From IMG/VR virus record IMGVR_UViG_3300035034_000621, positions 1-27,349 of that record: a stretch of DNA of 27,349 nucleotides. The stretch is one strand, 5' to 3'. The position numbers and the translations under genes are program-made. Below, one piece after another: positions 2,701 to 15,050 of the stretch. The first letter of the stretch is position 1, and each line of letters begins with the position of its first letter. The notes beneath the pieces were generated by a model. That model saw nothing but the letters and a program-made list of their open reading frames with translations, was not told the DNA's origin and made no database searches. The stretch comes from a virus.

Positions 2701-3783
2701 TTAATCATCTCCCATTTCTTCTTCTGACCCCATTGCGTCAAGATTAAGTTCTTGGTCCTTCAACATATCTAATGTTCCGATCTTATAGCGATCCGTAATG
2801 AATTGAGCAAAATCTGTTTTCTCGAACACAAGTTGCCAAAATTCTTTTACCACGGTATCCTTCTCCCGATGCTTTCCCTCTTCAAGAGTTTCGCCGGTCT
2901 TTGGATTGGCCCGTTGGTACCATCCGTTATTAGGCTTGACGACATACCCGCCCTCTAGTGCAATTTCCAACAAGCCGGAGAACTGTTCAATTCCACCCTT
3001 GAACTTGACCATAACCGGGAACTCTGATTTTTCACGAACAAATCTGGATTTCTCTACTCTAATCACGAACTCATTACCAACAAGTTCCTTTCCTTCCTTG
3101 CTCTGACGGCGACCAATGATGTACACATTATCGGAGGAATATGTAATGCCGGTTCCACCACTCACTATATCTTTTGCATACATTTCCATTGTCTTGTAGG
3201 TGTGATTAATGGAAAACATTGGAATGTCTTTCAGGGTCAGTTGCGGAGTAACGATTCTAAAGAATGACTTCATTTGCTTGGCCCGAGTCATGTCGGCGGC
3301 AGAGTTTTCGTTCAGTGCATCTTCAATTTCTTTCTTGGACGCAAGATTTCCAAGAGAGTCGATGGCGATAAAGACCTTATCTCCCCTGTTGATTCCTTCG
3401 AGTTGCTTGGCAATATCGAACTTTAATTGTTCTATGTTCGTAATTGGTGTGTAGACTACTCTATTCAAGTCGATTCCCATAGAAGAAAAGTAATCTGGCG
3501 GAGATCCGAACTCCGAGTCGTACCAGAGGATCACACCGTCTGGATTCTTGTCCTGAAACGCTTTGGCACACACAAGCACGAATAGCGTCTTGAAGTGCTT
3601 GGACGGCCCTGCAAAGACGGTAGAGCCCGCTCCAAATCCCCCGTCGATGGACCCAGAGAGGGCCACATTGAGGATAGGAATTTTCGTAGGTGTCAACTCT
3701 TTCTTCCCGAACACCTTTGAATCCATGATTAGCGCAGTGTCTTTGATCGTGCTATTTTTCTTCAATCTATCAGATAAACTCAT
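2701..3783 (-). CDS. uvsX: UvsX recombinase (phage RecA/Rad51 homologue)
   Basis: UvsX forms filaments on single-stranded DNA and catalyses strand exchange for recombination-dependent replication, working with UvsY (also in this window). At 360 aa it is close to T4 UvsX (about 390). The ATP-binding loop GPSKHFKT lies at 59-66 and matches the unusual GPSKxFK form of T4-type UvsX rather than the GPESSGKT of RecA. The Walker B-like strand KVFIAIDSLGNL and the filament-core signature SGGTGITYSSD are present, and the C-terminus is acidic. An AGAGAGG Shine-Dalgarno-like run lies about 13 bases before the ATG, in the short gap after the polymerase C-terminal gene. Confidence 0.97.
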   Translation of the reverse strand: MSLSDRLKKNSTIKDTALIMDSKVFGKKELTPTKIPILNVALSGSIDGGFGAGSTVFAGPSKHFKTLFVLVCAKAFQDKNPDGVILWYDSEFGSPPDYFSSMGIDLNRVVYTPITNIEQLKFDIAKQLEGINRGDKVFIAIDSLGNLASKKEIEDALNENSAADMTRAKQMKSFFRIVTPQLTLKDIPMFSINHTYKTMEMYAKDIVSGGTGITYSSDNVYIIGRRQSKEGKELVGNEFVIRVEKSRFVREKSEFPVMVKFKGGIEQFSGLLEIALEGGYVVKPNNGWYQRANPKTGETLEEGKHREKDTVVKEFWQLVFEKTDFAQFITDRYKIGTLDMLKDQELNLDAMGSEEEMGDD

Positions 3784-3802
3784 ATGTTCACACAGACCTC
3801 TC

Positions 3803-4915
3803 TTATTGGAAGAAATTTTCCAATGTTGTTTTGTTTTCCCATTCCCATCCGATACATTCTAAAATTGTTTGCAGTGGCGTAAGAAATGTTTTTGCATACT
3901 GCTTTCCATAATCGACATAGTTTTTGAGATTCATTTCTTCTGGTGGGTTCTTGATGAATGCTATAGTATTCTCTCCTATAGGATTCGGCATCGTCAAATA
4001 CACAGTCTTAATTTTGTCACCCGACCGAATGCATTCATATTTTGACTCGAACTTATTTGATTTGATCCAATTATTGTAGAGGATAGACCCTCTAACATGG
4101 ATTGGTGTACCCTTCGCGTATCCATTCTTTGTGATATGCTTCTCGATGTCCGACACCCCAGTAGTGTTTGCAATCTCACCTATGGGAAGATTCATGTATT
4201 CCTTCCTGAACGATTCGATGAATTCAATCACTTGTTTTTCATCTGTGGTCAGAATGAGACGAATGGCTTCCTCTAGTTTTTCCCGGCAGATGGCCGGAGT
4301 CGATGACCTCGCGGTTTCAAGTCCCATGATCTTCAGATGTGGATCCTTGAATCGAACGCCTTCCATGTCGTATACATTGAGAGCGTACCGCTTCTTCCTC
4401 GTCCAGAATCCCTTATCGGCTAAGGATTCTCTCTCCATTACGATATTATGCTTGAATGAATTAGTGTAATTGGAAAGTCTTAGATATTCCTTGTCTATTT
4501 CCTTGCTTATTTTCCTACATGCTTTGTCCATAAAATCTATGATTTGATTGACCGGAGCATCCTTCAGTCCAACTTTATTGACCAGTTTTTCCAGAGTAAC
4601 ATACGAAGAATCTGTATCCATGTACACGACAAAGGGTTCTTTTGAATCTTCTTCGCCGCATATCTTGGATAGGTATTCATTCAAAAAGACTTCAATCCAC
4701 TTGATGGTCAACTGACCCGTCAGAGTAATAGCCTCAGCCTGTCGGATATCAAAGAATTTGAAGTACTGCTGTCCCAACGCACCATAGGCAGAGTTCAGAA
4801 GAACCTTATATGCCATCTGTTTTGTTGAATACTCAGATTCAATTCGCTTCTCACCCTTTAGGAGATTCACGAGATCCTCGTCACTCATATCAGAATAGTT
4901 GATTTTTTCACTCAT
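3803..4915 (-). CDS. 43: DNA polymerase gp43, C-terminal piece (second fingers helix, palm motif C, thumb)
   Basis: This 370-aa protein is the C-terminal part of a family B polymerase. The fingers motif KVLLNSAYG begins at K37 (K560 region of RB69). Palm motif C is YMDTDS with D100 and D102, two residues of the metal site. The KKRY motif, the WDMEG-like VYDMEGVRF and the family MGLETARSSTP stretch follow in order, and then the thumb. It ends TTLENFFQ, which resembles the clamp-binding tail of gp43. Residues 1-30 are an extra helical lead-in. A TAA lies in frame a few codons upstream of the ATG, so this is a separate ORF. The start overlaps the preceding small gene by 8 bases. It lacks the exonuclease and motif A, so it must assemble with the two other pieces to be active. 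Confidence 0.95.
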   Translation of the reverse strand: MSEKINYSDMSDEDLVNLLKGEKRIESEYSTKQMAYKVLLNSAYGALGQQYFKFFDIRQAEAITLTGQLTIKWIEVFLNEYLSKICGEEDSKEPFVVYMDTDSSYVTLEKLVNKVGLKDAPVNQIIDFMDKACRKISKEIDKEYLRLSNYTNSFKHNIVMERESLADKGFWTRKKRYALNVYDMEGVRFKDPHLKIMGLETARSSTPAICREKLEEAIRLILTTDEKQVIEFIESFRKEYMNLPIGEIANTTGVSDIEKHITKNGYAKGTPIHVRGSILYNNWIKSNKFESKYECIRSGDKIKTVYLTMPNPIGENTIAFIKNPPEEMNLKNYVDYGKQYAKTFLTPLQTILECIGWEWENKTTLENFFQ

Positions 4916-5243
4916 GCCTTGACACCATTATAATGTCTCCAGACAATGAAAGCAAGTGCAATATGTCATTTTTCTTCAAAAAATACGCTTCCTTTGTAGT
5001 TAATCGGGATTCTTTATTGTCCAATTTAACTAATAACATTGAATTGTATTTTGATAAAATTTTACTGTAAAAGTTGTTTGTACTGATCGGTGGTGCATAG
5101 TCGATTTTTAAAACCTTTCCCATACCATAAAAATTAATTTTACCAGATGGGGAAACGCGGTCTACTACTCCGACCTCTTCGTCAATAGAAAATTTATTTT
5201 CTTTTACTTGCATGAAGTATTCGTATGCTGGGTGGTCTTTCAT
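4908..5243 (-). CDS. Hypothetical 111-aa protein inside the split polymerase region
   Basis: Not recognised. The middle part (about 17-50, VGVVDRVSPSGKINFYGMGKVLKI) looks like a small beta-barrel segment with a GxGKV turn, followed by hydrophobic beta-like strands. I see no HNH, GIY-YIG or LAGLIDADG motif, so it is not an obvious homing endonuclease. The DNA is notably AT-rich: about 28% G+C over 4981-5100, against about 43% in a sampled 60-base line of the polymerase N-terminal gene. It overlaps the gene before it by 4 bases (ATGA) and the polymerase C-terminal gene by 8 bases, so translation is probably coupled. It has no counterpart in polymerase family sequence. Confidence 0.7.
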   Translation of the reverse strand: MKDHPAYEYFMQVKENKFSIDEEVGVVDRVSPSGKINFYGMGKVLKIDYAPPISTNNFYSKILSKYNSMLLVKLDNKESRLTTKEAYFLKKNDILHLLSLSGDIIMVSRHE

Positions 5244-5437
5244 TGTGCAAAATGCCTTTTTAACATATCTTCCGTGCTGGACTCAAACCCCTGAATTAGA
5301 TGTAATGAAGTTCGTAAGAGTTCGATTAATTCATTTTGATTTGTAATTTCGGCTGCGTCTATTTTTTTATGATCTGTTTGTACAAGTATTTTTTCAACTC
5401 TGTCAACCCATTTTGAAACATTTGGTCTATTTTTCAT
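5240..5437 (-). CDS. Hypothetical 65-aa protein inside the split polymerase region
   Basis: A small, charged, probably all-helical protein that I do not recognise. It shows no catalytic motif and no cysteines. A good Shine-Dalgarno (GAGAGG, about 9 bases before the ATG) lies within the end of the polymerase middle gene, which it overlaps by 11 bases; its own end overlaps the next gene by 4 bases. Like its neighbour at 4908-5243 it lies in AT-rich DNA and separates two parts of the polymerase fingers domain. It could be the remnant of an invading element or a protein that helps the pieces assemble; nothing in the sequence decides. Confidence 0.65.
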   Translation of the reverse strand: MKNRPNVSKWVDRVEKILVQTDHKKIDAAEITNQNELIELLRTSLHLIQGFESSTEDMLKRHFAQ

Positions 5438-5777
5438 AATTTACACCTCTCTCTTTTAGTTCTTCCTGAATGAGTTCGATATTCTTTTGCGTCTCGATCA
5501 TCTTCTTCTTCATTGCCTTTCTCTTGTCGTAAAAATCTTCCATGAGAAAGGCTAGGAAGCCCTGTTCGTCGTTATCGAAGAAGTACCCGTTAGCGGCAAG
5601 ACCCAGATTGAGAGTCTTGTACGCTTCGACTACATCATCCGGAACATTGCAGGTTAAGATATCATCTACGGTGACATTGAGGCGATCTCCGTCCATGTTA
5701 CGCATGAGCGCATTTACAGCACCAAGCCAACGATTCAATTGTTCCGCATCTGCCTCGGCGACATCAAACTTAAACAT
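5427..5777 (-). CDS. 43: DNA polymerase gp43, middle piece (first fingers helix)
   Basis: At first sight an anonymous 116-aa ORF, but residues about 35-100 match the part of family B T4-type polymerases between palm motif A and the KxxxNSxYG motif. They contain VTVDDIL, then ANGYFFDNDEQGFLAFLM, then FYDKRKAMKKKM. The last aligns with T4/RB69 FNQRKEHKGYM, so R86, K87 and K90 are the likely triphosphate-binding residues (RB69 R482 region). Residues 1-34 have no clear place in the alignment and look like an added N-terminus. It starts by an 8-base overlap with the N-terminal piece and has an AAAGG Shine-Dalgarno 7 bases before the ATG. A TGA lies in its frame just upstream, so it is its own ORF in the +1 frame relative to the N-terminal piece. 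Assignment is by motif recognition without a search. Confidence 0.85.
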   Translation of the reverse strand: MFKFDVAEADAEQLNRWLGAVNALMRNMDGDRLNVTVDDILTCNVPDDVVEAYKTLNLGLAANGYFFDNDEQGFLAFLMEDFYDKRKAMKKKMIETQKNIELIQEELKERGVNYEK

Positions 5778-7071
5778 TACTCAACCTTTCAAGTATTCTC
5801 TTTCTGAATCCCTCCAAATTTCCTCGGGTCACCAGTGTATCGGGGGAAATATTCTTTCCCGCAATGATATTTGGATAAAGAGAATTCACATCGAAAGATG
5901 CAACATAGTTGTACATGCCGGGCACCGGATCTTTTACATAGGCCCCGGCATATTGACTGTCTTTGGAAAAAGAACTTAGGTTGAGGGGAATGATAATTCC
6001 CCGCTCTCTTAGATGGTTGTAAATGATAGAATCCCATGTTCTCACTGGAGAGAAAACATCTTCATAATTGATGAGAGCGGTATAGGCAATTTGCGTCTGC
6101 AACTCCAGCAGACACAGTTTGGTTTCCATTTCATATACTAGATCAACATCTACAGCGTTGTACTCCATAAACAGTTGGAAGTTTTTCTTGTAGAATTCAG
6201 ACATGCTATCGTACTTGGATTTCCAATCGACCTTCTTATGCCCTAATTCTGCTTCCGCGATGAAGTCCAGTTTGTACGATTCCCTCGGCTTCAAAACATA
6301 TTTCTTGTACAACTGCATGAAGTCAAGAATCGCAATTCCGTGTATCTTATAAGTCTGTCGGGTGTTTCCATAATCATCAATCACATTTTTAGCATAGATG
6401 CTTCCCCACGGTGAAAGAGCCTTTGAGTAATCTTCTCCCAAAACTCTATTCACTCTATTGATGATGTAAGGAATGTCGTAACCCGATATGTTCCAACCGC
6501 TCACGATATCATAGTCCTCTTGTCTCCAAAGTTCTATGAATGTTTTGAGAAGTTCGGATTCTTCTGTAAACTCCATGCAGGTGTACGATCTATCCTCGGT
6601 ATCTGGAATATGAAAATTTCCAAGCCCCAGAACATAGGTCTTACCGCTCTTAGATGATCTGGTGGTAATGGCATTGATTCTTTCCCGAGCGTCGGTAGCG
6701 TCTGGGAATGATCTTTCTGACTCACACTCAATGTCGATGTATGCTGAATTAAGACCGGAGAATTCGTACGAACAGCCACCGGATTCGAGATACTTGTCTG
6801 AGAGATATTGACTGACCCAATTATCCTGCCCGTGCAGAGTGTACCCATCGACATTATCCCATTTCTCAATGTAGTTTTTGCAGTCCCACATTGTGCCCGG
6901 CTTGACCGGATCGAGCGGGAATCCAGAGACACTTTTGAAATTTGTTTTCTTTTTGGTTTCGGTATAAAGAGTGGGATAGAATTCATCATTGATATGAATC
7001 CTATCCCCGGACTCGTCATAGCCACGGAATCCCATCTTGGACCCCGTTCTATTCACATTAGTATATCGCAT
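5770..7071 (-). CDS. 43: DNA polymerase gp43, N-terminal piece (3'-5' exonuclease and palm motif A)
   Basis: The N-terminal piece of the replicative family B polymerase, 433 aa from ATG 7071. Exo I is YIDIE (D113, E115), Exo II is NISGYDIPYI (D199) and Exo III is YNAVD (Y304, D308). Palm motif A is SFDVNSLYPNII with D394; the usual Ser after YP is Asn, as in many T4-like phages. The protein stops 39 residues after D394, before the fingers, with an extra tail of about 20 residues after ISPDTL. Motif spacing agrees with RB69 gp43. A TTG at 7116 with GGAG upstream would add 15 residues and overlap the lysozyme gene by 31 bases. I prefer 7071, because MRYTNVNR fits the family N-terminus. The partner pieces follow at 5427-5777 and 3803-4915. 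Confidence 0.95.
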   Translation of the reverse strand: MRYTNVNRTGSKMGFRGYDESGDRIHINDEFYPTLYTETKKKTNFKSVSGFPLDPVKPGTMWDCKNYIEKWDNVDGYTLHGQDNWVSQYLSDKYLESGGCSYEFSGLNSAYIDIECESERSFPDATDARERINAITTRSSKSGKTYVLGLGNFHIPDTEDRSYTCMEFTEESELLKTFIELWRQEDYDIVSGWNISGYDIPYIINRVNRVLGEDYSKALSPWGSIYAKNVIDDYGNTRQTYKIHGIAILDFMQLYKKYVLKPRESYKLDFIAEAELGHKKVDWKSKYDSMSEFYKKNFQLFMEYNAVDVDLVYEMETKLCLLELQTQIAYTALINYEDVFSPVRTWDSIIYNHLRERGIIIPLNLSSFSKDSQYAGAYVKDPVPGMYNYVASFDVNSLYPNIIAGKNISPDTLVTRGNLEGFRKRILERLSNV

Positions 7072-7085
7072 AATCTCACAATTCT

Positions 7086-7637
7086 TTAGTTTAGCAGGTT
7101 GCTGACTTTGATCCAATAAATCTCCGTGGATGACTTCTCGTGACCCCTCGGGCCTCCGTTATGCATCCGTGCCAGACCCTCCAGAGAGTACCCCACGCGA
7201 TGCCCGTAGCGGTCCCAGTACGCCAGCACGATCGACCGTGCGTAATCTGGGTTGAAAACATCGAGATAGACACCGCCAATGTTTGGCGACTGCTCGATGG
7301 CATCGAGCCAGTAAATTTCCCAGATCTGAAAAGATCCACGAGCATTGCCCGAATCCCCAATCGCATTTGCATCGCCATTAGATTCCACGAATTCGATCGC
7401 ATCCAAAAGTCTAATGTGGTCCGCTGTCACCCAAGAGTACGGGCGGGCTTCCACGAAGTTCTGGACTGTAACATCATTTTTGCTCGGTAACATCGGTGAT
7501 GTTACAGTGCGTTCCGGTGTTACAATCGAGTGCCGTGCCACCCTTGACGAAACCATATCAGCGGTGATAATGAATACCACTGCGAATACGATGAATATTT
7601 GAGCGTATGAAAGTTTCTTGAATGTTGCATAAATCAT
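7086..7637 (-). CDS. Membrane-anchored lysozyme/lytic transglycosylase-like protein
   Basis: A 183-aa protein with one N-terminal hydrophobic segment (about 12-28) and a globular domain from about 65. The domain has AIEFVESNGDANAIGD (E82 or E85 as candidate acid), GNARGSFQIWEIYWLDA, and later ARMHNGGPRG. The layout FQI..YW ... PDYA ... Y..RYG ... ARxHNGGPxG resembles goose/invertebrate-type lysozyme and SLT-like phage muramidases, but lacks the cysteines of the animal i-type enzymes. The N-terminal segment could be a signal anchor or a signal-arrest-release sequence, which would place it in the inner membrane or periplasm. It has its own promoter (7681-7709) and an AAGGA Shine-Dalgarno 8 bases before the ATG. 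It heads the polymerase transcript, an unusual place for a lysis or cell-wall gene. Its role (lysis, superinfection control or other) is not known. Confidence 0.8.
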   Translation of the reverse strand: MIYATFKKLSYAQIFIVFAVVFIITADMVSSRVARHSIVTPERTVTSPMLPSKNDVTVQNFVEARPYSWVTADHIRLLDAIEFVESNGDANAIGDSGNARGSFQIWEIYWLDAIEQSPNIGGVYLDVFNPDYARSIVLAYWDRYGHRVGYSLEGLARMHNGGPRGHEKSSTEIYWIKVSNLLN

Positions 7638-8857: not shown

Positions 8858-9247
8858 TTACTTTCCAATATTGTATTTGGGTACTAGCACCCAATCAGAC
8901 TTTTCCTTGAACGGAATAATTTTAAGTCTTGACATGTCCAACTCATCTTCGGTTTGGTCCGGGTCTATGATTTCACACAGTCCCCATTCTTCCAAAAGGT
9001 TTGCTATTGTATTTCTTCTCAGCAAATCTTCCTCGGGAACATCCTGATGTATGCCGTCAAATATAAACATTTCTTTGAAATGTACTATTGCGTATTCACC
9101 TCTTTTGTGGAGAATATGGCAACTTTGATACAGTTTCTTTTCTTTTCTGGAAGATATACCCATGCGAGTCAGGGTTTCTTTTATCTTTAAAAAGTTTTCT
9201 TTGTTTAATATATCAATTCTAACACCGAGGCCACTAAAAATATCCAT
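8858..9247 (-). CDS. regA: RegA translational repressor
   Basis: RegA binds the ribosome-binding regions of early phage mRNAs, including its own in T4, and blocks initiation. The 129-aa protein matches T4 RegA (122 aa) closely along its length: KETLTRMGI, LYQSCHILHKRG, IVHFKEM, a NTIANLLEEWGL segment and the C-terminal WVLVPKYNIG. It occupies the T4 position between 62 and 43, except that dUTPase, dNMP kinase and a lysozyme-like gene have been placed between it and the polymerase. The ATG is preceded by an AAAAGGAAG ribosome site that lies partly in a hairpin (9258-9282). Confidence 0.97.
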   Translation of the reverse strand: MDIFSGLGVRIDILNKENFLKIKETLTRMGISSRKEKKLYQSCHILHKRGEYAIVHFKEMFIFDGIHQDVPEEDLLRRNTIANLLEEWGLCEIIDPDQTEDELDMSRLKIIPFKEKSDWVLVPKYNIGK

Positions 9248-9296: not shown

Positions 9297-9704
9297 TTAA
9301 TCTTTCATATCTTCATAGATTAGGGACAACTCTTTGATCTGCGCCTCAGTCATACATCCAAGATATTCTGCGGCTCTTCTGCTATTAACTTTATAGAGTT
9401 TGACTATCATCTCTATATTCTTTTGCTTCGGTGCCTTATGCCACTTTGTAAATCTTTTCCTCTTTTTTGCAGATTCGAGCCAGAACAGATAGTGTATCTC
9501 TTTTGGGATGGAGTGACCAAACTTAGTTATCTGCCCGGCAAGACCCAGAGTGTCTGGAAAATATGACATGGTTCTATTAATTAGAAATGCAGAATAATTT
9601 TCCAGTTCAGTGCCGTCAACAACAAGATTATTCTTATCGAAGTTTATGGATTTTAAAAAATCTCCAAATGTAGGTGATGTGGATTTAATCGTAGTCATAG
9701 TCAT
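9297..9704 (-). CDS. 62: Clamp loader small subunit gp62
   Basis: gp62 joins four gp44 subunits to load the gp45 clamp. This 135-aa form is shorter than T4 gp62 (187 aa) but matches the short gp62 of environmental T4-like phages: SAFLINRTMSYFPDT near the N-terminus, IPKEIHYLFWL, then KKRKRFTKWHK and a helical C-terminus with AAEYLGCMTEAQIKEL. The start is uncertain: GTG 9728, ATG 9704 and ATG 9698 are all possible and all overlap the end of the preceding gene. I chose 9704, which has GGGACGG just upstream. Confidence 0.85.
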   Translation of the reverse strand: MTMTTIKSTSPTFGDFLKSINFDKNNLVVDGTELENYSAFLINRTMSYFPDTLGLAGQITKFGHSIPKEIHYLFWLESAKKRKRFTKWHKAPKQKNIEMIVKLYKVNSRRAAEYLGCMTEAQIKELSLIYEDMKD

Positions 9705-10446
9705 CACCGTCCCACATGTTTGGTCCACTCATTCTGTGATTTACTCTCAATTGTTGGATTAATGGAACTGGAATATGAATCCATTTTTTATCTTTTACGG
9801 AGAAGAATGGAGACATGTACATCGAATCGAATGCCGTAGTACCCAACCAGTACGACTTCGGCTTTATTTCCAAGTGTTCCGCAGATATTGTACTTTCGGG
9901 AGAAACTTTGACGATCTCAGGTCCGCCGTAGAGGGATTCGTATTGGAGTATGAATTCCGTTGAATCTTGCCCAATTTCTGTATCATCATTTAGAATGTCT
10001 TGAAGGGCCTTTTCGCACATGAGTTCGCACACTCCAAACTTTTCGATAAAGTCTCCGGTGACCTTATGTGCTATCTGATTGATCAGGTAGTTCATACGAA
10101 ACAGTAGGAACTCGTGCTTCATGATCATTCCTATTTTACAAAATTCGGAATACGAGTACTTTCGCATGAGTTTATCCCAATGTAAACACCACGCACTTTT
10201 GAAATTTGGATTATTGCTTTTGAACACACCATTGACAACTGAAGTCATATCATACGAGTCAGATGTAATGTAATTGAGAGACAGTCCACTTGATATCATT
10301 TGGCTTGCCCCAAATACTATCTGGCCTACTTCATTTTTAAAGTCTGCAATCTCGTACTGATCCGCTACATCTTTCATTATTTCCATGAACTCAATAGCGG
10401 TCGTATTCTTAGATACTTTGAACTTTCGGTCTTGATCTTCATTCAT
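9685..10446 (-). CDS. Unknown 253-aa protein inserted between clamp loader genes 44 and 62
   Basis: I do not recognise this protein. It has a helical first half with several aromatic and methionine residues (about 95-135, including WCLHWDKLMRKYSYSEFCKIGM) and a second half ending in a very acidic tail (DGDDYDYD). There is no Walker, zinc or nuclease motif and no membrane segment. ATG at 10446 overlaps the gp44 stop by 4 bases (ATGA), so translation is coupled to gp44, and its end overlaps gp62. In T4 genes 44 and 62 are adjacent and coupled, so this gene splits a pair whose products act in one complex. That placement suggests a link to replication, but no function can be read from the sequence. 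The frame is open to 10482; the 10446 start is better supported. Confidence 0.85.
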   Translation of the reverse strand: MNEDQDRKFKVSKNTTAIEFMEIMKDVADQYEIADFKNEVGQIVFGASQMISSGLSLNYITSDSYDMTSVVNGVFKSNNPNFKSAWCLHWDKLMRKYSYSEFCKIGMIMKHEFLLFRMNYLINQIAHKVTGDFIEKFGVCELMCEKALQDILNDDTEIGQDSTEFILQYESLYGGPEIVKVSPESTISAEHLEIKPKSYWLGTTAFDSMYMSPFFSVKDKKWIHIPVPLIQQLRVNHRMSGPNMWDGDDYDYD

Positions 10447-11414
10447 GTTAGTGTAACCTCCACCATTAGCATCGTCAGGCACGCCATCATATTTATCTCC
10501 GGGTCAATCGTAAAAGCAGACTGATACGAATACTCCTGTATCGTTCCGATAGCCACTGCCAGAGACTTAGAATCAATTATGGGTGTACCCTCGTCATTCA
10601 TACGCCAGATGTACTTGTACAGGTCGGAATAAAATCTCTGTACATCTCCGTCAGAATTATCCGCAACCCACTCGCGGAGTGCGATAAACTTCTTGGACCT
10701 CAAAATCTCAAAGAGTTTGGACATCTCATTATTGGAAGATGACGACACGATCGAGTTATCCAGTGAACCATTCTTTGAATGGTGCTGCAACTTACCCAAA
10801 ATCATTCTAAAGTCTGGGAAATAGGTCTTAACTGCTTGGGCTAGAGTATTGGAATCAAACTGAATTCCCTCTCTTTTGAGGATACTCTTGCATAGTTCAA
10901 ACATTTCACCCGCAAGACCTACTCGCTCAGTCTTTGGAATCTTGAAATCTATTACCGGGCATCTGGAATGAAGTGCTGGAATAATCTTGTTCTTGTAATT
11001 GCAAGTCATAATGAATCGGCAATTACTACTAAATTCCTCAATGAACCCTCTAAGTGCGGGCTGTGTCGATGTCGGGTTGAGATGATCGGCCTCGTCCAGA
11101 ATAACAACCTTCAAGCCCCCCGTGAGGGACAGGGTAGACGCAAACCCGCGAATCTTTGTCCGGAGTACATCAATACCATTCTCATCCGATCCATTGATGA
11201 AAAGGTAATCGAGCCCGAGTTCTTCACACATAGCCCTAGCAGCGGTGGTCTTTCCGCATCCGGGACCACCACTCAAAATCATATTCGGAAAGTTATCCCT
11301 TCCTTCCACCGCAATAGATTTTAGAACCTTCTTAATATCCCTCGGGAGAACACAATCATCAATTGTCTTTGGTCGATATTTTTCCACAAACAGTACATTA
11401 TGAATATCATCCAT
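10443..11414 (-). CDS. 44: Clamp loader ATPase subunit gp44
   Basis: AAA+ ATPase of the gp44/62 clamp loader, which opens gp45 and places it on primed DNA. The 323-aa protein (T4 gp44 is 319) has VEKYRPKTIDD at the N-terminus, Walker A GGPGCGKTT (49-57), Walker B ILDEAD (105-110), sensor 1 in IMTCNYKNKI and the SRC arginine-finger motif at 150-152. A three-helix collar domain follows. An AAGGAAGAG ribosome site precedes the ATG, in the 18-base gap after gp45. Confidence 0.97.
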   Translation of the reverse strand: MDDIHNVLFVEKYRPKTIDDCVLPRDIKKVLKSIAVEGRDNFPNMILSGGPGCGKTTAARAMCEELGLDYLFINGSDENGIDVLRTKIRGFASTLSLTGGLKVVILDEADHLNPTSTQPALRGFIEEFSSNCRFIMTCNYKNKIIPALHSRCPVIDFKIPKTERVGLAGEMFELCKSILKREGIQFDSNTLAQAVKTYFPDFRMILGKLQHHSKNGSLDNSIVSSSSNNEMSKLFEILRSKKFIALREWVADNSDGDVQRFYSDLYKYIWRMNDEGTPIIDSKSLAVAIGTIQEYSYQSAFTIDPEINMMACLTMLMVEVTLT

Positions 11415-11432
11415 CGTAATAAGTCTCTTCCT

Positions 11433-12137
11433 TTAAGAATTTTTTGTCTCTACGGCGATCCAGTAATTCAGATTCATATTGGTATGCGTAAACCTTGAAA
11501 TGATCTTCTGTGCGATAGAAACATTGTAGTCTCCTGCAAAAGATGGCAGATTTGAGATCTTAAAGATGTACTCATATTCATCTGATTCATCTGATGCATC
11601 TACCTCACCGATCAAAAACTCGTAGAAGTCACTAACCCCTGATCTCGATCCGCCATTCATATCCTCTGGTGCAAAGATCTTTGCAACGAGTTCGGTGCCT
11701 CGGTTGCGAAGAGATAGGGAGTCAACCTTTAAGGCGTTCGCAGCACTCAGTATAGCGTCTTTGGTTTCGCCTGTCAATACAAATTCCAGTCTGGCGGCGA
11801 ACGACCCCATACCCTTGCTAGGAACCTTCAGTAAGGTCCGTGGTGACATCCTGTACCGTAGCATACCGCCAGACTCGCCACGAATGGTGATGTTGCTGTC
11901 CATCGGGTCTGTCGGGAATGTGATTTCAGGATTCTCCAGAAGTTTTACCGCGTTCAAGAATCTCGGCAAATCAAAGATCGCAAGGTTGCCGTCGAATTGC
12001 TCGTCTGATTCGTACTGAGCAAAAATCGTCTTATCTTCCTTCATGGTCCGGATGATGTTTCCGGGCTCGATGAAAATATTCGGATTAATGTCTGCGAACT
12101 TTCTCAAGATTTGAACGGTAGTCGTGGTCAATTTCAT
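11433..12137 (-). CDS. 45: Sliding clamp gp45
   Basis: The trimeric clamp gives the polymerase processivity and, in T4, activates late transcription by binding gp55 and gp33. At 234 aa it is close to T4 gp45 (228). The N-terminus (MKLTTTTVQILRKFADIN) and the segment FDLPRFLNAVKLL are typical of the family, and it lies directly upstream of gp44 as in T4. Its clients in this window are the polymerase pieces (tail LENFF) and gp55 (tail IENFM). A GGAG ribosome site lies about 11 bases before the ATG. Confidence 0.95.
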   Translation of the reverse strand: MKLTTTTVQILRKFADINPNIFIEPGNIIRTMKEDKTIFAQYESDEQFDGNLAIFDLPRFLNAVKLLENPEITFPTDPMDSNITIRGESGGMLRYRMSPRTLLKVPSKGMGSFAARLEFVLTGETKDAILSAANALKVDSLSLRNRGTELVAKIFAPEDMNGGSRSGVSDFYEFLIGEVDASDESDEYEYIFKISNLPSFAGDYNVSIAQKIISRFTHTNMNLNYWIAVETKNS

Positions 12138-12791: not shown

Positions 12792-15050
12792 TTAGTAGCC
12801 TCCCTCCGCGATAGCGGATGCGATCTGGTAGATAAACAATCCATCTGAATTATTCTTTTTATGAATAAGTTTACGAATCTTGTTAAGGTTCTTAGCATTC
12901 TTTTCGCCATCCATCTTTTGGATTACATCATCAATATCTATTTTTGCTTCAACAGCATACTGATATCCAGCGTCAAATCCAATAACATTATCATACTTGG
13001 TTACATTACCATTCCTTCGAGACTTAACTTTTCCGTCCTCTCCAACTTCTTTCATGATGGGACTTCCATCAATACTGTTGTGCGTCTGAATTCTTCCTGT
13101 GAATTCAACATATGACATTCCTCCGCTTGAAATCTTCTTCATCGCGTGAGCAACAATACCAACGGAACTCATAGACTCTCTCCGAGTCAAATACTTTCTA
13201 AGGCTAAGAGTATTGGAACTGATCACCAGACCGCTGAAATTGGTGTTGAGGAAGGCTGTAGGCTTAGCGAACAGATTGTACATAGATCGGTTATCCGCTC
13301 CATCTGTCATTACAATAGTATGTAGATATTGAACGGAGTTTTTCTTCTTGAAATCTTCCATGAATTTCATAGAATTTAACATCAAACTTGATAGGGGAGT
13401 AGACCCCACAAGTTGAAGTTTTGCGGTTACTAGTAGATCAATTACTCGCTGCCGCTTCTTGGGGGACATATCCGAAGAAAGAATTCTGATCTGTGACTTT
13501 AGGCGAGGCAAAAGGACCGTCGTATCATTATTCTCGCTATTTACCTGAACCAAAACCCCATCGACGACCTTGCTGTCGCTTGACTGCCAACCATCATAGG
13601 TTCCATTTGAAAATGTATGAATTTCATAAGGAATTCCAACTCTATCACAGAAATATGAAAAATTAATGATTTGAGTTACGAGCGAGAAGAAAAAGTTTCC
13701 CTGCATGGACTGGCTAAAATCCACAAGAACCACGACACCGTGAGATTTACCCGACGGGGTAGTTTCCTTATTCAGAAATATGTTTTCGCTAGTCCGGTAT
13801 TCATGCAACCTAGCCATGTTGATAACTCCCGTTCGGTGTACGCGAGTTCTCGTAATTTGATCTGCTTTCATTTTAGCAAGGAAAATATTAGATGCATTCG
13901 ACGCAAACTTCCTGCATTCTGCGAGCCGATTCAACTCGACCTCTCCGAGTGTAATTTGATTACGCTTAGCCCAGTTCGGGACAATGTTAGAATCTTCAAA
14001 TTCTAAGATAGGAATTCCATAATCCCTAGATTCGATTCGGATCGTTTCCGGAGGATTTAAATCGGAATCATCAGATCCGACGAAATTCAGAATACCCCTT
14101 GCGAAAGCGTCGATGCTTTTAATGCTACTCCAGTCGGGACTTCTTTCCCCGTAGATAGGTTCTTCATTGGCATTATATTCATATTGATCATCATCGTCAT
14201 AATCGTCATAATCGTCATAATCATGATCATCCCCGTCCGGATCGTAAACCTCTGGATCAACGGCAATTTCATCTTCAGGATCATCGAAATCTGGCGTTGA
14301 ATTTATTTGCATCGAAACCGGAATAGCACTAGAAGCACTGGTTCCGGTCGTAACATCGGGTCCAGAAACCTTATTATTTCTCTTATCGACATCCAAAGGA
14401 AGAGGGAAATTCTCATATTCATCACCTTCAAGATCTGAAGGTTTATTCTCAGAATCAATACGAATGTGAAAATCCAAGATTTCTCTGATGTTTTTGTAAA
14501 TCTGTTCCGGTGTCTCGGCTAGGCTGAATTCCTGTGCCATACGGCGTTCGACCTGCGAAAACGGAACATCAATGATAGCACCAATCTTATAGTGAATATT
14601 CAGTCGATCTAAGAATGAGAAAGATTCAATATCCTTCGGATCCCCCAACTTAAAGAAGTTATTCAGGTACAGGTAATTGTACCCTCTTGATCGGAGAAGG
14701 TGTAGGCCCGGGTACTTTCGGGACATCAAAGTATCAACGCGAATATCTTCGAGAATGTTAAACGCGCTCTTAATGTAGTTTTCGTGAGCATCATATTGCT
14801 CGCAAATAGGCTTCAAAAAATTCAAGAAATCTACAGGCGTGTAAACAGCGTGCCCGACCTCATGCACAATAAAATGGTCGATGAGATAATTCGGTGCCGA
14901 CGCGGAGAACAGCGGTAGGGTAATGTGCCTAGTCATCACATTAAACACCGCTGTGTGGGCCTTTGCATCGTAGGAGAATGACACATTTTCAGATGCCAAA
15001 ATGGATGCCAAGATTTCATTTTCACGATTACTACTGCCAATTTTCATCAT
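12792..15050 (-). CDS. CobT/VWA-like protein with an HExxH metalloprotease-like motif
   Basis: A 752-aa protein in three parts. The N-terminal part has HEVGHAVYTP with H63, E64 and H67, followed by ILEDIRVD (about 99-106), the layout of a gluzincin-like zinc site. A long acidic linker (about 255-295) is rich in Asp and Tyr. The C-terminal part is a von Willebrand A domain with a complete MIDAS: DFSQS at 444-448, the Thr of GSTPL at 551 and TDGAD with D583. Similar HExxH plus VWA proteins partner MoxR-type AAA+ ATPases (CobS/CobT, NorQ/NorD, CbbQ/CbbO), and the CobS-like ATPase here is the divergent neighbour at 15246. The pair may remodel or metallate a protein; actual cobalt chelation is doubtful without a cobN-type partner. 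It is the first gene of the minus-strand block. Confidence 0.85.
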   Translation of the reverse strand: MMKIGSSNRENEILASILASENVSFSYDAKAHTAVFNVMTRHITLPLFSASAPNYLIDHFIVHEVGHAVYTPVDFLNFLKPICEQYDAHENYIKSAFNILEDIRVDTLMSRKYPGLHLLRSRGYNYLYLNNFFKLGDPKDIESFSFLDRLNIHYKIGAIIDVPFSQVERRMAQEFSLAETPEQIYKNIREILDFHIRIDSENKPSDLEGDEYENFPLPLDVDKRNNKVSGPDVTTGTSASSAIPVSMQINSTPDFDDPEDEIAVDPEVYDPDGDDHDYDDYDDYDDDDQYEYNANEEPIYGERSPDWSSIKSIDAFARGILNFVGSDDSDLNPPETIRIESRDYGIPILEFEDSNIVPNWAKRNQITLGEVELNRLAECRKFASNASNIFLAKMKADQITRTRVHRTGVINMARLHEYRTSENIFLNKETTPSGKSHGVVVLVDFSQSMQGNFFFSLVTQIINFSYFCDRVGIPYEIHTFSNGTYDGWQSSDSKVVDGVLVQVNSENNDTTVLLPRLKSQIRILSSDMSPKKRQRVIDLLVTAKLQLVGSTPLSSLMLNSMKFMEDFKKKNSVQYLHTIVMTDGADNRSMYNLFAKPTAFLNTNFSGLVISSNTLSLRKYLTRRESMSSVGIVAHAMKKISSGGMSYVEFTGRIQTHNSIDGSPIMKEVGEDGKVKSRRNGNVTKYDNVIGFDAGYQYAVEAKIDIDDVIQKMDGEKNAKNLNKIRKLIHKKNNSDGLFIYQIASAIAEGGY
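14194..14220 (-). repeat. Three perfect 9-bp tandem repeats in the acidic linker
   Basis: The unit ATCGTCATA (plus strand) occurs three times in a row and continues as degenerate copies beyond 14220. It is in frame and encodes the Asp/Tyr-rich linker of the VWA protein. Slippage here would change linker length by multiples of three residues without breaking the frame. Confidence 0.8.

Follow-up and report, generated by a model that had tools for sequence, protein, structure and literature searches.

The splitting of the T4-type replicative DNA polymerase gp43 into two genes is already known. In Aeromonas phages 44RR and 25, and also in Acinetobacter phage Berthold and Synechococcus phage ACG-2014f, a break at the fingers tip (profile column 476/477, as in the gp43 described below) creates a 43A/43B pair with separate start and stop codons, and 43A and 43B of Aeromonas phage 25 co-purify and are active according to the passage of PMC2988022 that cites Petrov et al. 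2010. Another essential enzyme in separate chains is NrdA of Aeromonas phage Aeh1 (mobE): a homing endonuclease divides it, and the chains are active without being joined (PMC2988022). It resembles split gp43 in this respect, but is a different enzyme and consists of two pieces. A gp43 on three ORFs also has a precedent, i.e., that of LIMEstone1, for which PMC3296691 (Table 1) gives ORF178-180-182 and two "putative introns".

Here we describe a gp43 divided among three genes in the virus record IMGVR_UViG_3300035034_000621 of IMG/VR (27,349 nucleotides, all of them analysed and referred to below as the window). While the 43A/43B phages have two pieces only, motif A and the fingers not being separated by a break, the window has three. 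The Dickeya phages of the genus Limestonevirus (LIMEstone1, Ds23CZ) likewise carry gp43 on three ORFs with the second break at the fingers tip, as in the window, but their first break interrupts motif A itself (EDLNSL/YPHI), and an endonuclease ORF there is flanked by group I intron-like segments, whereas the first break of the window lies after motif A. Owing to the intron-like nature of the first break in Limestonevirus, splicing should yield two chains. In Ds23CZ the intron-like segments occur at both ends of the first gap, the second gap harbors an endonuclease gene on the other strand, and the middle ORF has 159 aa, the length of PHROG 15725, of which it is probably a member. The first-pass annotation of the window had considered a three-piece form to be undescribed; given the LIMEstone1 listing this is too strong, although that phage would make two chains after splicing. 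Among the openly accessible papers that we searched, none describes a gp43 made as three protein pieces and broken between motif A and the fingers.

Three genes for one polymerase

The split gp43 lies within a T4-type core replication cluster (45-44-62-regA-43-uvsX-41), with regA, gp62, gp44 and gp45 upstream, uvsX and a DnaB-type helicase downstream, and uvsY, a UvsW-like helicase and homologues of genes 55, 47 and 46 on the opposite strand. The features discussed below are as follows:

2701..3783, minus strand: uvsX (phrog_97, 4e-87)
3803..4915, minus strand: P3, 370 aa; second fingers helix, motif B, motif C, remaining palm and thumb (T4 gp43 match, AF2 model)
4607..4618, minus strand: motif C, DTDS, P3 residues 100-103 (aligned to GDTDS at T4 617)
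4781..4807, minus strand: motif B, KVLLNSAYG, P3 residues 37-45 (aligned to KILINSLYG at T4 557)
4908..5243, minus strand: O111, 111-aa ORF in the site-2 gap, overlapping the start of P3; GC 0.33; a homologue at the same place in contig L006
5240..5437, minus strand: O65, 65-aa ORF in the site-2 gap; GC 0.32; no Pfam or PHROG match
5427..5777, minus strand: P2, 116 aa; fingers piece with the putative dNTP-binding residues R86 and K90 (PHROG and profile matches, L006 homologue)
5451..5558, minus strand: first fingers helix, P2 residues 74-109 (AF2 model, pLDDT 90-95 over residues 81-110)
5679..5777, minus strand: P2 head, residues 1-33, extra relative to one-piece gp43 by alignment; helix 11-26 predicted by AF2
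5770..5777, minus strand: site 1, where the stop of P1 and the start of P2 overlap by 8 bp (T4 ~431/434), read from the sequence
5770..7071, minus strand: P1, 433 aa; gp43 N-terminal domain, exonuclease (ExoI-III) and first palm part with motif A (phrog_262, RB69 gp43 and profile matches)
5869..5892, minus strand: motif A, DVNSLYPN, P1 residues 394-401 (aligned to DLTSLYPS, T4 408-415)
8858..9247, minus strand: regA (phrog_242, 1.4e-51)
10443..12137, minus strand: gp44 clamp loader and gp45 clamp (phrog_168, 7.6e-102; phrog_223, 2.8e-45)

At the sequence level the assignment of P1, P2 and P3 to a gp43 split in three genes, as proposed in the first-pass annotation, is confirmed. PHROG and PDB searches matched P1 to phrog_262 (2.4e-138) and RB69 gp43 (1.8e-63) and P3 to phrog_262 (1e-130) and T4 gp43 (1.2e-69); P2 matched phrog_2062 (1.2e-10) and phrog_262 (1.8e-10), with no significant match when it was searched by itself against PDB sequences. 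On a profile HMM built from 94 one-piece gp43 proteins (830 columns) the three ORFs, 919 aa in sum, tile columns 4-409, 408-478 and 483-830 with E-values of 4e-147, 3e-14 and 1e-138, which exclude chance, and the 116-aa ORF does align to the fingers as had been suggested. In T4 numbering P1 ends at ~431, P2 spans ~434-509 and P3 starts near 510, i.e., both breaks are placed as first described, after motif A (site 1) and at the fingers tip (site 2). The start of P1 is taken as the ATG at 7071; a TTG at 7116, if used, would give 448 aa.

The family B signature of T4-type gp43, Exo I-III and motifs A, B and C with their catalytic acidic residues, is present across the three ORFs (ExoI DIE, ExoIII YNAVDV, DVNSLYP, KRKAMKKKM, KVLLNSAYG, DTDS and KKRY). 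R86 and K90 of P2 are invariant in 30 homologues. In RB69 the dNTP triphosphate is bound by the fingers residues R482 and K486, and by homology R86 and K90 are presumably the residues that do so here.

Some neighboring genes are less familiar. Directly before P1 (7086-7637) is a gene whose product may have a membrane anchor and weakly matches destabilase (lysozyme-type). Together with dNMP kinase and dUTPase genes it sits between regA and gp43, adjacent to each other in T4; a 265-aa ORF without PHROG match (9685-10482) lies between the gp62 and gp44 homologues.

Persistence of the arrangement and its junctions

Two further contigs bear on whether the breaks are real. The first (IMGVR_UViG_3300012147_000171, L001) is 99.96% identical to the window, with five SNPs over 12,915 bp, none of them at the breaks, and it reads the same two breaks. 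The second (IMGVR_UViG_3300029142_000076, L006) is a different phage, 66% (P1, part of which is on the contig), 47% (P2), 63% (P3) and 68% (uvsX) identical to the window, that nevertheless has the same three gp43 ORFs in the same order and with the same break positions; its pieces cover the profile up to column 408, from 405 to 480 and from 480 to 829. Frameshifts can occur in metagenome contigs, and a normal gene split by assembly or sequencing error would look similar, but the identical breaks of L001 despite its SNPs, together with the same three ORFs in the divergent L006, show that the split is no artefact, and we regard error as a negligible prospect. An IMG/VR search with P1, P2, P3 and uvsX profiles for more three-piece phages, in loci picked by similarity and hence no census, returned only these two contigs, a scan of genome contigs with P3 gave no match, and no match spanning all of P2 was seen in phage records.

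A codon comparison between the window and L006 gave dN values of 0.30, 0.46 and 0.30 for P1, P2 and P3, with dS saturated, which, given that the layout is kept in L006, indicates that purifying selection has maintained gp43 in three pieces. This speaks against the three genes being dead fragments of a decayed gp43 in a phage replicated by another polymerase, either its own, encoded elsewhere, or that of the host. The 27-kb record is only part of a genome, which gives such a scenario some room, and within this fragment there is no further PF00136 polymerase. However, the frames are intact, all catalytic residues are kept, the distant L006 shares the layout and the rest of a T4-type replisome (45, 44, 62, uvsX, 41) flanks the split gene, so that decay appears improbable. 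From sequence comparison, the three-piece gp43 appears to be functional and inherited, an extension of the known two-piece form.

Other peculiarities of these contigs were also seen. P1 of L006 (L006:1-165) carries an intein C-terminal end (VSKGIKTHN before CEMFDIPY) inside the ExoII motif, and the contig begins with GTTTCCCAGTCACGATC, which resembles a random-PCR primer tail. In L001 a leader-like stretch, MWVEENYLKGMTMN or a near variant, is repeated ahead of successive small genes (at 12931, 13289 and 13738) and is perhaps a repeated promoter or ribosome-binding region.

The pieces might still be rejoined after transcription. The site-2 gap could be an intron, or split inteins could ligate the chains, and both the intron-like insertion in gp43 of LIMEstone-type phages and the intein in P1 of L006 lend some plausibility to splicing. 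At site 1, however, the 8-bp overlap leaves no room for an intron. An Rfam search of the window (3500-7500) up to E 1 found no group I intron of the LIMEstone type between the ORFs and no other match, while the same search gave group I intron matches in gp43 of Ds23CZ; L006 gave no intron-type match either. In the domain search of P1, P2 and P3 there was no intein match and no intein half at the new ends, and the heads of P2 and P3 contain no HN+Cys/Ser junction. Moreover, P2 ends and P3 starts in the manner of 43A and 43B, which are separate in other phages, and we find splicing very hard to credit.

It could also be envisaged that programmed ribosomal frameshifting in the P1/P2 overlap joins these two pieces, leaving an enzyme of two chains. 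The 8-bp overlap itself is suggestive, but ribosomes would have to shift by +1 in the window and by -1 in L006, where the overlap is a 4-bp ATGA, each P2 has its own ATG and Shine-Dalgarno-like stretch, and the joined P1 tail and P2 head would insert ~46 residues that, by alignment, one-piece gp43 does not have. There is thus little to recommend frameshifting, and the P1/P2 overlap in the absence of intron or intein signals implies that three chains should assemble non-covalently, as the first-pass annotation had anticipated from the ORFs.

The kinship with 43A/43B is clearest at site 2, where P2 ends at column 478 and P3 starts at 483, i.e., the fingers-tip break of 44RR, although both the window and L006 have three pieces rather than exactly two. 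The gap holds O65 and O111 in the window and an IMPDH/GMP reductase gene and an O111 homologue (E 1e-8, pairwise protein comparison) in L006.

Recurrence of both break sites among relatives

Our survey comprised 231 distinct IMG/VR loci spanning site 1 and site 2; these were picked by similarity and the counts are no census. One-piece genes were found in 199, 21 are broken at site 2 only, nine at site 1 only, and two lineages, those of the window and of L006, at both. In the tree the window and L006 group together with support 100, and all other loci fall outside this clade. Site 2 requires at least eight label changes, and the three site-1 phages included represent separate events; of these phages, L015 and L083 have close relatives with one-piece genes.

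The site-1-only contigs (L015, L083, L127, L222, L228, L246, L254, L339 and L340) are broken at the same columns as the window (~404-419) and likewise have an added P1 tail and P2 head, but their fingers are still joined to the C-terminal part, whereas in the window they are separate. All but one (8/9) harbor an endonuclease gene in the gap, HNH in seven (177-186 aa) and GIY-YIG in L127; none was seen in the site-1 gap of L222. The HNH genes form a family (e.g., L015:4156-4689, L254:6759-7292, L246:6738-7286, L228:2328-2888) that was not found full-length in phage records, and the phages with this gene each have their own added P1 tail and P2 head, unlike their one-piece relatives. The site-2 gaps of relatives contain a gene of DUF559 type with HTH in L126 and one that is weakly GIY-YIG-like in L163, besides a 90-aa ORF, thioredoxin and other cargo, and cultured phages with this break include 44RR, ACG-2014f and Berthold, the last with MobE. 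The 90-aa ORF (MKKGDVVSLVTLTGEFVG...) is conserved in two-piece phages and fills the gap in L008, L009, L011, L013, L025, L034, L038, L056 and L168; a comparison of O111 with it showed no relation. In Campylobacter phage CJLB-12 (L189:4110-6759) gp43 is broken elsewhere, at profile column ~563.

Domain and PHROG searches recognised no endonuclease gene at either break in the window or L006, although the same sites have them in relatives. The three-piece gp43 is most simply read, from these comparisons, as two independent splits at two endonuclease-prone sites, and we infer that an endonuclease made site 1 in the lineage of the window as well. We do not claim a common origin with the HNH cassettes, since shuffling tests were unconvincing: for the P1 tail of the window HMM scores against the cassette tails were not above shuffles, and for the P2 head they were marginal, while pairwise comparison of heads gave p = 0.003-0.2. 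The first-pass interpretation was largely right, but it had missed L006, the site-1-only contigs with a homing endonuclease, and O65 and O111.

A putative three-chain polymerase

The AF2 model of P2 (mean pLDDT 84.7) consists of the added helix (11-26), a small hairpin and the long helix (74-109), and found no Foldseek match on its own at E <= 0.001; that of P3 (pLDDT 85.9) comprises the second fingers helix, palm and thumb and matches T4 gp43 (9ea2_A, TM 0.77, E 1.7e-24). Site 1 (T4 431-434) falls in a palm surface loop that T4 uses for polymerase-polymerase contact, Q430 and K432 being at the polymerase-exchange dimer interface (PMC12746103).

We consider it quite likely that one operon of this phage yields gp43 as three polypeptides, which fold together into a single polymerase-exonuclease with no peptide bonds between them. 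P1 would supply the exonuclease and motif A. P2 would add the first fingers helix, whose Arg and Lys would bind the dNTP triphosphate, and motifs B and C as well as the thumb would come from P3, so that the fingers would be an antiparallel helix pair from two chains, as in 43A/43B. Both breaks would lie in tolerant places, the palm surface loop and the fingers tip. The likely history would be two separate insertions that split gp43, followed by loss of the endonucleases; what remained would be the start-stop overlap of site 1 and the small cargo genes of site 2. It is conceivable, albeit doubtful, that the P1 tail and P2 head are docking parts rather than scars, forming a new interface at the palm loop and making the fingers a separate, possibly exchangeable subunit, with inserting elements bringing docking ends along. 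The amphipathicity of P1 tails and P2 heads was not significant.

What appears new, judged from sequence, is a doubly split gp43 that combines both known or recurrent sites and is shared by two phage lineages. A replicative polymerase needs speed, processivity and accuracy, and its fidelity is checked in part through the closing of the fingers. In these phages the two fingers helices would belong to separate chains, one of 116 aa, and would thereby test how much covalent continuity the fingers motion requires. The one-piece, site-1-only, site-2-only and doubly split genes found in nature form a series that makes this question directly testable. The series also suggests that mobile endonucleases can make a multi-subunit enzyme out of a single-chain one, and it would mark two tolerant split sites in family B polymerases.
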